This document shows positions 2,783 through 6,360 of a DNA stretch of 32,267 bases, in pieces. This DNA is from Alphaproteobacteria bacterium. Lineage in GTDB: Bacteria > Pseudomonadota > Alphaproteobacteria > Bin95. Every line of letters starts with the position of its first letter. Within the stretch, counting starts at the first letter, position 1. The position numbers and the translations under genes are program-made. The notes beneath the pieces were generated by a model. The model was not told the origin of the DNA and ran no database searches. It saw only the letters and a program-made list of their open reading frames with translations. The stretch lies in NCBI GenBank assembly GCA_022827685.1, contig JAJEIH010000100.1:1-32267 (forward strand). Reading direction: 5' to 3'.

Positions 2783-3688
2783 TCAGCAATCCAAAACGGC
2801 CCGTCGGAGGGCGGCGAAGTCCGTGCGGGCTTCGAGGCCGATGCAGATGAGGCCGGCGGGGGCGTCGGCGGGGGCGTCCGTGACCGTCCAGCGGCTGCCG
2901 ACGGTCTGGATGGCGGCCATGCCGCCGCCGGGGCGGCGCATGAAACCCTTGGCGCGCAGCAGGCCGTGTGCGGCGTCGGCGAGGATGCGGGCGAGCGCCT
3001 CCGGTTCGGCGCCCTCGGGCGGGTCGAGCGCGGCGGCTGCGTAGCCCTGCGTGTGGTCGAACGGCCCGCCCGCAGCCGGCGGGGCGGCGCGGCCGGTCCA
3101 GGCGCCGAGCACGATGTCGATGGGGGCCTCGGCGCGGGTCGTGCGCAGCAGCCGGGCGTCCGGCGCCGCCTCGCCGAGCCAGGCTTCCACTTCGTCCGCG
3201 TCGCCCGCGAGGTCGCATTTGTTGAGCAGGATGAGGTCGGCTTGGTCGAGCTGCCGGCGGACGGTGCTACCGAGATAGCGGTCATGGGCCCGGCCGCGCA
3301 CGGTCTCGGCGTCGGCCAGCACCACGGCGCCGTCAAGCGCGAAGCCCTGCAGCAGGCCGACCGTGCCGGCGATGGCGCCGGGGAAGGCGACGCCGCTCGC
3401 CTCCAGCAGCACATGGTCCGGCCTTGGCGCCAGCGCCTCCAGCATGGCGAGCGAGGACACGAGGTCCTCCCCGTAGCTGCAGCACACGCAGCCGCCGACA
3501 AGGCTGACGATGCGCTCGTCCGCCGCCTCCACAAGGCTCGCGTCAATGGGGAGCGCGCCGAATTCGTTCACCATGATTGCGAGCCGCCTGCCATTCGCCT
3601 GCCGGAGCAGGCTGTTGACCAGCGTCGTCTTGCCGGCGCCCAGATAGCCGCCGACCACGGTGACGGGCAGCGGGCCGGCGGCGGTCAT
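2783..3688 (-). CDS. COG0523 (CobW/YjiA-like) GTPase, metal chaperone family
   Basis: This 301-residue G3E-family P-loop GTPase has Walker A GGYLGAGKTT (residues 13-22), the NEFG...ID switch segment, the metal-binding signature GGCVCC (C67, C69, C70) and the guanine-specificity motif NKCD. COG0523 members deliver zinc, cobalt or other metals to client enzymes or take part in metal homeostasis; the client often sits nearby. The start codon overlaps the amidohydrolase stop by ATGA, so the metal-dependent amidohydrolase is an obvious candidate client. That link is inference. The C-terminal CobW_C-like domain is short and the protein lacks the His-rich stretch seen in some relatives. Cytoplasmic. 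Confidence 0.9.
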   Translation of the reverse strand: MTAAGPLPVTVVGGYLGAGKTTLVNSLLRQANGRRLAIMVNEFGALPIDASLVEAADERIVSLVGGCVCCSYGEDLVSSLAMLEALAPRPDHVLLEASGVAFPGAIAGTVGLLQGFALDGAVVLADAETVRGRAHDRYLGSTVRRQLDQADLILLNKCDLAGDADEVEAWLGEAAPDARLLRTTRAEAPIDIVLGAWTGRAAPPAAGGPFDHTQGYAAAALDPPEGAEPEALARILADAAHGLLRAKGFMRRPGGGMAAIQTVGSRWTVTDAPADAPAGLICIGLEARTDFAALRRAVLDC

Positions 3689-5331
3689 GTTCCGAGGTCG
3701 GCGGCCCGGAAGATGCGGCCGCCCTGCACCGTGCCCCAGACGCGGACGTCCTTCAGCCGCTCGCCGCCGACGGTCTCCGGGTCGTCCTCCAGCACGGCGA
3801 AATCGGCGCGCTTGCCGGTCTCGATGGAGCCCACCTCGCCGTCGAGGCCGAGCGTGTAGGCCGCGCCGAGCGTGATCGTGCGGAGCGCGTCGGCGGTACC
3901 GATCCGCTCATGCTCGCCGAGGGTGCGCCCCGATGCGGTCCGCCGGTTGACGGCGCACCAGGCGGTGAAGAGCGGGCCCAGCGGCGTGACCGGCGCGTCG
4001 GAATGGATGGCGAGCGGCACGCCCTCGCGGAGCGCGGTCGCGCAGGCGTTCATGCGCTCGGCGCGCTCCGGCCCCACGGTCACGGCGTAATGCTGGTCGC
4101 CCCAGTAGAAATGGTGGTTGGGGAAGAGGTTGACGCAGAGGCCGAGCGCGCGGATGCGGCGGAACTGCGCCGCGTCGGCAAGCTGGCAGTGCTGGAGGGT
4201 GAAGCGGTGGTCGGGCGCGGGATGCTTGCGGAGCGCGGATTCCATGCAGTCGAGCGCGAGGTCGGTCGCCTCGTCGCCATTGGTGTGGGTATGCACCCGG
4301 AGGCCGGCGGCGAGCGCGCGTTCGTAGATCTCCAGCAGGTGCTCCGGCGGGACGTACCAGAGCCCTTCCGGCGCGCCGTTGTAATAGCCGGGCCAGCGCA
4401 GCCGGGCGGAGAAGCCCTGGATCGAGCCGTCCGCCACCACCTTGATGATGCCGAGGCGGAGCCTGTCCCGGCTGCGGCCCCTGAGCTCGAGCGCCCGGTC
4501 GATCAGCTCTTCGGGCGTGAGGCCGTAGAAGCGCCGCAGCGAGACGATGCGCGCCGGGTAGTCCGGCTCGCCGGTCACGCGCAACATCATCTCCACCGCG
4601 TCTTCCGGCAGCAGGTTGGCGAGGTCGGCGGCCGTGGTGACGCCGGTGCGCACGCAGAGCCTGGCGAAGCGGCGCAGGCCCGGCTCGTCACAGGCCAGCA
4701 GGTCGCGATCGAAGCCGGTGTGGACGCCGAGCGGGGCCATGGCGTCCGGCCCCTTCATCTCGCCGGTCGGCAGGCCGTCCGCGCCGAGCGGGATGCCGGG
4801 ATGGTTGACGCCCGTGCGCAGCAGGCCGGCGAGTTCCAGCGCCCTGGTGTTGACATTCAGGATGTGGCCGGAGGCGTTCAACACGCCGACCGCGCGCTCC
4901 TCCGAGACCCTGTCGAGGTCGTGGCGGTTGACGCGCCGGCCGCCATAGTAGATCGCGTCGAGCGACCAGCCGGCGAGCGGCGCCGCCGGGTCCTCCAGCG
5001 CGCCCGCCGCTTCGGCCAGCCGCTCAACCACGGCGTCGATGGACTTCAGGCCCGCCCAGACCCTGCCTTCGGGGTCCATGCGGTCGAAGAAGCCGCAATA
5101 GACATAGGCCCAGAGCGAGCCTTCCATGACATGGCTGTGGCCTTCCACCAGCCCCGGCATCAGCACCTTGTCCGCGAAGCGCCCGTCGAGGCGGTAGTCG
5201 CCCCAGCCGGCCAGCTCCTCCAGCGTCCCGGCGCCGAGGATGCGGCCCTCCCGCACCGCCACATGGGTGGCGTGCGGCCGGGCCGGGTTCATGGTGATGA
5301 TCCTGGCGGCCGGATAGATGGTGGCGGTCAT
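3685..5331 (-). CDS. YtcJ-type metal-dependent amidohydrolase
   Basis: A 548-residue member of the amidohydrolase superfamily. After an N-terminal beta-sandwich piece, the first metal-binding motif EGHSH gives H65 and H67; further along are IIKVVADGS, HTHTNGD, LQHCQL and HSDAPV, which supply the remaining metal and catalytic residues, and the chain closes with the GSIETGKRADFAVLEDDP segment typical of the family. YtcJ-like proteins hydrolyse amide or related bonds in small molecules; the substrate cannot be predicted. No signal peptide is seen. It overlaps the upstream selenoprotein gene and the downstream COG0523 GTPase gene by ATGA at both ends, so the three are almost certainly co-transcribed and translationally coupled. 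Confidence 0.92.
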   Translation of the reverse strand: MTATIYPAARIITMNPARPHATHVAVREGRILGAGTLEELAGWGDYRLDGRFADKVLMPGLVEGHSHVMEGSLWAYVYCGFFDRMDPEGRVWAGLKSIDAVVERLAEAAGALEDPAAPLAGWSLDAIYYGGRRVNRHDLDRVSEERAVGVLNASGHILNVNTRALELAGLLRTGVNHPGIPLGADGLPTGEMKGPDAMAPLGVHTGFDRDLLACDEPGLRRFARLCVRTGVTTAADLANLLPEDAVEMMLRVTGEPDYPARIVSLRRFYGLTPEELIDRALELRGRSRDRLRLGIIKVVADGSIQGFSARLRWPGYYNGAPEGLWYVPPEHLLEIYERALAAGLRVHTHTNGDEATDLALDCMESALRKHPAPDHRFTLQHCQLADAAQFRRIRALGLCVNLFPNHHFYWGDQHYAVTVGPERAERMNACATALREGVPLAIHSDAPVTPLGPLFTAWCAVNRRTASGRTLGEHERIGTADALRTITLGAAYTLGLDGEVGSIETGKRADFAVLEDDPETVGGERLKDVRVWGTVQGGRIFRAADLGT

Positions 5332-5849
5332 GCCGCGGTCAGGATCGGCAGGGCCTGCCGGTAGGCCGCTTCGGCCAGCACCCTGATCTCGTCCGGCCGG
5401 CGGCTGCCGATCGGGTGCTCGACCATGATGAAGGGATAGTCCGGGAGGCCGAGCGTCCGGGCGATGTTCCGCGCCGTCACCTCGAAGGGTTCGGTGCAGA
5501 TGACCGCCGCGCGCTTGCCGAGCTGCTCGAAGCTGATGCCGTCATGCAAACTGCACGTCGAACAGGAGCCTCAGTCGCCGAGCCCCGTTATCAGGAAATC
5601 GACCTTCTCCGCCGCCTCCTGCAGTGTCTCTTCGGGCGCGGGCGCGCTCGCGTTCCACTTGGACCAGACCGGCACCACCGTGCAGCCGTGCCGTTCCTCG
5701 AAGAGCGCGGCGGTCTCCCGCAGCATGGCGGTGGCGTTGAGCTTGCCGTTCTCCAGCAGGCCGACGGTCCGGCCCTCCAGCCCGGCGAGCGCCGCCGCCC
5801 GGGCGAGGTTCCGCTCCGGCCCCGGAACCGTGGGGTCGCAAAGAAGCAT
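5328..5849 (-). CDS. UGSC-family selenoprotein with in-frame UGA (Sec93)
   Basis: Reading through one TGA (5573-5571, codon 93) gives a continuous 173-residue protein: a Rossmann-like N-terminal half starting MLLCDPTVP, with GRTVGLLENGKLNA and DFLITGLGD, then Sec-G-S-C-S-T-C and a C-terminal half ending LPILTAA. The U-G-S-C tetrapeptide is the signature that names the UGSC (seleno)protein family, known from marine metagenome selenoprotein surveys (from memory). C96 and C99 follow, so a redox or selenothiol role is likely, but the reaction is unknown. A SECIS-like hairpin lies just after the UGA. The start has GGGAG about 12 nt upstream. The true stop is also UGA, overlapping the amidohydrolase ATG. 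The downstream frame is intact for 80 codons, which argues against a nonsense mutation. Gene callers will report two fragments (5571-5849 and 5328-5549). Confidence 0.85.
5539..5561 (-). promoter_or_regulatory. Bacterial SECIS-like hairpin for the UGSC gene
   Basis: On the mRNA strand, TCGACGTGCA and TGCATGACGG pair around a GTT loop: nine pairs, two or three of them G-U, with one A-A mismatch. Nineteen nucleotides separate the UGA from the loop. This closely resembles the E. coli fdhF SECIS, where 18 nt precede a GGUC loop on a stem also ending in GCA/UGC. A G in the first loop positions at 16-37 nt from the UGA is the accepted bacterial SECIS rule. The hairpin lies inside the coding region, as bacterial elements do. 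Confidence 0.75.
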
Positions 5850-5997: not shown

Positions 5998-6267
5998 TCA
6001 GAAGCCGAGATGGGGGCGGTGGCCGCGGTCTCGGTCCTCGCGAATCAGGTCTTCGGCGGGTGTATGTTCGCGCCCTTCCGTTGCGCGCCACAGCGGTTCG
6101 ACCATGGCGAAGAATGCGGCGTGTTTGGCCTCCATATCCTCTTCCTGTACCGCGGCTTCCAGAATATGGCGTGCCTCGGCCTCCAGCGACCGGTTATTGC
6201 TCGACGCGCGGTTCTCAAGGCGCTGGACTACATCGTCATCGAGTTCGCTGACAGTAATCGTCACCAT
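5998..6267 (-). CDS. FitA-like ribbon-helix-helix antitoxin, no toxin beside it
   Basis: An 89-residue protein starting MVTITVSELDDDVVQRLENRA, then SLEAEARHILEAAV: a ribbon-helix-helix DNA-binding domain of the FitA/plasmid-stability type, which normally binds its own operator and neutralises a PIN-domain toxin encoded just downstream. The ATG at 6267 was chosen because GTGGAAGG precedes it; a longer frame upstream lacks homology. Downstream 5850-5997 contains no PIN domain in any frame, so the partner toxin is missing. The C-terminal half (HTPAEDLIREDRDRGHRPHLGF) is longer than in many FitA proteins. It sits between the two UGSC-related genes on the same strand and may be an orphan repressor or a leftover. 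Confidence 0.8.
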   Translation of the reverse strand: MVTITVSELDDDVVQRLENRASSNNRSLEAEARHILEAAVQEEDMEAKHAAFFAMVEPLWRATEGREHTPAEDLIREDRDRGHRPHLGF

Positions 6268-6360
6268 GCCTTCCACTCCGCCGGATTGCTGCCGCGACCG
6301 ATAGCACGGCAAGGCGGGACGGGACACTCTCCCGCGCTCGGGCCGGCTCGCGCTTTCCGC

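Follow-up and report, generated by a model that had tools for sequence, protein, structure and literature searches.

Does the in-frame UGA in a gene on the minus strand of this alphaproteobacterial contig encode selenocysteine (Sec), or does it mark a gene that has been broken? An earlier note on the window (the whole stretch of 32,267 nucleotides analysed here) claimed a selenoprotein gene of the UGSC family at positions 5328–5849. This location is right, although the strand had been left unstated. The reading frame starts with an ATG at 5849 and runs through 173 codons to a terminal TGA (5330–5328). The UGA in question is codon 93 (5573–5571). Translated as Sec, it affords a 173-residue product in which U93 is immediately followed by GSCSTC, so that codons 93–96 (5573–5562) spell the motif U-G-S-C and codon 99 provides a further cysteine. 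Beyond the UGA, the frame stays open for exactly 80 codons. The second UGA is read as the stop, and the last letters of the gene form an ATGA overlap with the start of an amidohydrolase gene at 5331, as had been described.

The read-through protein was compared with two curated family models. It scores 131.2 bits against NCBIfam NF041046 (UGSC_fam; curated cut-off 125; residues 25–170) and 164.5 bits against Pfam PF24696 (UGSC; cut-off 25; E = 3.4e-48; residues 4–171). Both cut-offs are passed, and we uphold the claim that the TGA at codon 93 interrupts one UGSC-family protein. We put the probability that positions 5849–5328 constitute one intact, predicted selenoprotein gene of this family at about 90%. 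The prediction that automatic annotation would report two unrelated small proteins was fair in kind: the mechanical list of open reading frames of the window contains the 92-residue front half alone.

UGSC is already established as a selenoprotein family (PMC2398784, PMC13188914; NF041046, PF24696), and the window gene is one more member. Known since 2008, the family was reported as abundant in the selenoproteome of the Global Ocean Sampling project, with 255 Sec forms versus 21 Cys forms, and few selenoproteins are more abundant in aquatic metagenomes (PMC2398784). The window gene itself does not differ from the known family. The two agree in the UxxC motif, in the Sec column, in having a bacterial SECIS and in the near absence of Cys forms. 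What goes beyond the description in PMC2398784 is a separate partner gene coding for 359 amino acids of an uncharacterised family (P359; 6361–7440, minus strand), the presence of six paralogues in one genome, links to thioredoxin and a predicted (beta-alpha)5 fold. The associations with P359 and thioredoxin are the main thing that the present analysis adds, and they make the function of UGSC testable.

The rival explanation for the in-frame UGA is that a nonsense mutation or a sequencing error turned a Cys-type UGSC gene into a pseudogene. A single substitution does separate TGA from TGC and TGT, and the family includes Cys forms. Of 46 related loci that we collected from public genomes, 44 cover the Sec column (alpha- and gammaproteobacteria, Chloroflexi). 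The same TGA occupies this column in 43 of these 44 independent relatives, across phyla; the remaining one (L057) contains serine. In an alignment of 43 sequences (A2), Cys96 is invariant, and the Sec column and Cys99 are nearly so. A survey of 385 genomes of the class identified 102 UGSC matches in 38 genomes, and 97 of these matches contain exactly one TGA. Four of the other matches are complete and all carry cysteine (CGSC in L103 and L104, CGSS in L105, CGLC in L106); the fifth is partial. Cysteine is also found at this column in plasmid-borne copies from Arthrobacter, Natrinema, Roseovarius, Variovorax and Halorientalis, and TGA in a plasmid copy from Acidovorax sp. T1. The members with cysteine are distant ones. 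The relatives to which the earlier note had looked for Sec or Cys at codon 93 thus carry one or the other, bar the serine in L057. All six UGSC genes of the window genome contain the TGA, the frame beyond it is still family-like, a hairpin loop behind it is preserved through codon choice, and the genome contains Sec machinery (see below). Because of these comparative data, we consider a nonsense mutation excluded for practical purposes.

The Acidovorax gene (L171, 6989–7519) lies on a conjugative IncP plasmid, where it adjoins P359. In the public record of this plasmid, only the stretch up to the TGA is annotated, as a hypothetical protein ending exactly at the Sec codon. Annotation can still truncate UGSC-type genes at this point. 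The gammaproteobacterial homologue with serine at the Sec column (L057, 5968–6501) has no P359 nearby and may be a member in which the chemistry has been lost.

In the case of E. coli fdhF, the SECIS hairpin follows the UGA immediately, and the loop bases G23 and U24 are needed by SelB. The candidate SECIS in the window was proposed to occupy positions 5539–5561 with nine pairs, a GTT loop and a spacing of 19 nucleotides, and all of these features were found again. The hairpin (5561–5539, minus strand) consists of 10 + 3 + 10 nucleotides with one A·A mismatch, and its apical GUU loop starts 19 nucleotides after the UGA, placing G23 and U24 at 5551–5550. With a folding energy of −7.6 kcal/mol (z = −1.84; 9 of 200 shuffled sequences were as good), the hairpin by itself is only moderately stable, and for this reason a single copy constitutes no proof. 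Placement and G23–U24 are shared with fdhF. The two elements differ in the loop, which has three bases in most UGSC members, and at position 17, which is C rather than a bulged U17. An Rfam scan of the window returned no family at gathering score.

Conservation across the family is more informative than stability. Among 42 UGSC genes that represent distant subfamilies, nearly all start their apical loop 18–19 nucleotides after the UGA, and 41 have G-U at nucleotides 23–24 (numbering begins with the U of UGA). The codon at +7, which contains these two bases, is AGT in 34 of 34 cases where it encodes serine and TGT in 7 of 7 cases where it encodes cysteine. Elsewhere in the same genes, AGT accounts for 27 of 320 serine codons (8%) and TGT for 9 of 70 cysteine codons. 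This codon choice indicates that the bases of the loop, and not the amino acid, are conserved. The mean folding z-score relative to synonymous codon shuffles is −1.54 with a standard error of 0.17 (42 genes, which are not independent of each other). In the lower stem, 6 of 28 sequences show double substitutions that preserve pairing, at two pairs. In ungapped sequences anchored at the UGA, the pair 21–27 is mostly C-G; L099 and the Acidovorax gene have G-C instead. The nucleotides at positions 23–24 after the terminal UGA are C-G, with no G-U loop in register. This observation agrees with the earlier suggestion that recoding must be context-specific in a gene that also ends in UGA. We propose that SelB and Sec-tRNA-Sec bind the hairpin just after codon 93, so that this UGA would be decoded as selenocysteine, and that translation would stop at the final UGA, which is not followed by a hairpin in register.

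The genome that contains the window (4.3 Mb, 99% complete) encodes the machinery for this process. A search for selA, selB, selC and selD, which had been suggested as a check, retrieved all four genes. SelB was identified with 435 bits, selA is located directly upstream of selB, and the gene for tRNA-Sec has the anticodon TCA (UCA). The selD gene codes for an Ndh-SelD fusion of 738 amino acids with an NADH-dehydrogenase-like domain (L115, 2420–4636). Across the class, selA occurs in 35 of the 38 genomes with UGSC versus 21 of the 347 others (p = 1.6e-31, to be read as association and not as an exact probability, because genomes within a clade share ancestry and do not count independently). Three UGSC genomes lack selA: two of them contain a Cys form, and the other is 77% complete. 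In four genomes, UGSC and P359 are encoded about 2–5 kb from selA-selB.

After establishing that the gene is most likely intact, we turn to the question as to what the protein may do. One clue is its neighbour. P359 has no sequence match in Pfam, NCBIfam or PDB, and the genomes that its profile matches are precisely the 38 of 385 that contain UGSC. Our class-wide search found P359 on the same strand within 1.5 kb of 88 of the 102 UGSC matches. This number is an undercount, because no more than five candidates per genome were scored; inspection of the places where P359 was missing added nine cases and the locus L099 one more, which raises the count to 98 of 102. Three of the four UGSC matches for which P359 was not found are near contig ends. 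L146 is the clear exception, with no P359 within about 3 kb. The two genes are separated by 511 nucleotides in the window, directly adjacent in relatives such as L024, and joined in one polypeptide in L099, L102 and L106. Adjacency is seen in bacteria as well as in archaea. The predicted structure of P359 (pLDDT 88.7) has only weak matches to known folds, the best being 7xky in Foldseek (E = 6e-5, TM 0.26) and a Z of 5.5 in VIA-align.

The association between P359 and UGSC appears to be unreported in the open-access literature. A fusion designated UGSC/Unknown_1 has been depicted (PMC2398784, Figure S1A), in which a UGSC domain and a conserved unknown domain share one chain in the same way as in L099, L102 and L106. 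This protein is probably the same fusion as the UGSC-P359 proteins seen here. In the window, by contrast, UGSC and P359 are separate genes.

Several P359 proteins are connected to thioredoxin. One subfamily contains an additional N-terminal domain with the motifs C-x-T-C and VPTL. This domain scores below Pfam cut-offs, and a profile of it compared to PDB sequences finds thioredoxins as its best matches throughout (E = 1.2e-4). Arthrobacter encodes an operon with the order trxB, trxA, P359, UGSC, and the order in Roseovarius is P359, UGSC, trxB.

The window genome (G000) contains six UGSC genes with one in-frame TGA each. The five additional genes are found at loci L098–L102; two of the P359 genes at these loci have the thioredoxin-like N-terminal domain, and two of the loci encode single-chain UGSC-P359 fusions. 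The same genome also codes for a small PrdB-like protein with the motif PV-U-PNC (L144), which is likely to represent a second type of UxxC selenoprotein in this organism. Another small PrdB-like match (G000:C74:4345-4785) scores below the Pfam cut-off.

A structural model of UGSC (pLDDT 92.5) consists of five alternating strand-helix units with Sec93 just before a helix that spans residues 94–108. The order of a thioredoxin fold (beta-alpha-beta-alpha-beta-beta-alpha) is not what this model predicts, although a thioredoxin-like fold had been guessed for the family (PMC2398784). Structures in PDB that resemble the model are generic Rossmann, flavodoxin and receiver-like folds, none of which stands clearly above the rest; the best scores are Z 10.7 for a designed protein and 10.5 for a chain of the MCR activation complex. 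In the predicted 173-residue product, Sec93 would open a helix of an alternating beta/alpha fold and could form a U-x-x-C pair with Cys96.

Genome context and the chemistry of this motif lead us to propose that UGSC and the protein encoded by P359 form a selenol reductase, and that the selenenyl-sulfide of UGSC would be re-reduced by thioredoxin. The gene structure, the Sec/Cys column, the conservation at the RNA level, the Sec machinery, the almost invariable pairing with P359 and the links to thioredoxin are read directly from the genomes; from these we infer the actual insertion of Sec, the redox chemistry and a complex between UGSC and P359. We give this part of the explanation, a reductase made of UGSC and P359 and fed by thioredoxin, roughly even odds. 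An alternative is that UGSC and P359 are just inherited together as neighbours, and that UGSC acts as a general thiol/selenol antioxidant selenoprotein with no dedicated reductase. This idea fits with the variation between genera of the neighbours beyond P359 and thioredoxin, and with a 2026 review that lists UGSC among uncharacterised redox proteins, a group whose biological functions are largely uncharacterised (PMC13188914). Against it stand the complete lack of discordance between UGSC and P359 in 385 genomes, conserved adjacency in bacteria and archaea, and the gene fusions. A genome can also contain up to six diverged UGSC-P359 pairs, a number that points to several substrates more than to a single housekeeping role. 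We consider the antioxidant alternative unlikely.

Thioredoxin is the electron donor of glycine reductase, and the thioredoxin links suggest the same donor for UGSC. A more specific version of the proposal holds that UGSC, P359 and thioredoxin make up a substrate-specific reductase akin to glycine or proline reductase, in which UGSC corresponds to the Sec domain of GrdB/PrdB. Like the GrdB/PrdB proteins (PF07355), UGSC contains Sec in a UxxC motif followed by a similar order of motifs. A comparison of the UGSC profile with that of small PF07355-type selenoproteins of the class places the two Sec residues in register (P = 3.2e-4, probability 39%), a match below usual confidence; control comparisons gave P values of 0.23 and 0.48. 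A PrdB-like model assigns up to 13 bits to UGSC proteins of the alignment set and 17 bits to one fused copy, versus −1.5 or less for reversed sequences. One genome (G341) contains the contiguous order Trx-P359, UGSC, PrdB-like, and catabolic neighbours and transporters are found near UGSC/P359. On the other hand, the window protein itself finds no match to PF07355 even at E = 10, and P359 is no known reductase subunit. GrdB/PrdB structures were not among the fold matches of UGSC, an absence that excludes nothing, and searches of PDB sequences with the UGSC and P359 profiles returned matches at chance level. The signs of a distant relation to GrdB/PrdB are suggestive only, and we regard this version as doubtful. 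With comparable reserve, we raise the possibility that UGSC and P359 represent an undescribed selenium-dependent catabolic reductase that receives its electrons from thioredoxin and is in some cases associated with a PrdB-like selenoprotein. Such a system would be a distant counterpart of glycine and proline reductase outside amino-acid-fermenting anaerobes, would have radiated to six copies in one genome and moved on plasmids, and would be represented by Cys versions in haloarchaea and actinobacteria. The identical genome distribution of P359, the fusions and operons with thioredoxin, and the Cys versions in culturable hosts open a concrete route to the reaction.

Inspection of the 46 loci for conserved neighbours other than P359 revealed clade-specific genes only. 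The gene between P359 and UGSC in the window (5998–6327, minus strand; PF22513) encodes a FitA-like ribbon-helix-helix protein of the antitoxin type. It is present in L022, L023, L079 and L086, absent in L024 and in other genera, and probably stands outside the core system. The amidohydrolase gene that overlaps the UGSC stop (3685–5331, minus strand; PF07969) occurs in L022–L024, L066, L079 and L086 only. A CobW-family GTPase gene (2783–3688, minus strand; PF02492) belongs to the same local operon and is likewise limited to the nearest relatives. Because of this narrow conservation, we dropped both proteins as functional partners.

Plasmids of Vibrio europaeus (L168) and Sporomusa termitida (L169) encode proteins of about 560 amino acids that combine a weak UGSC match with a P359 domain. 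A UGSC-type motif was looked for in these two proteins and not found. Both genes adjoin those for aconitase X and DUF126.
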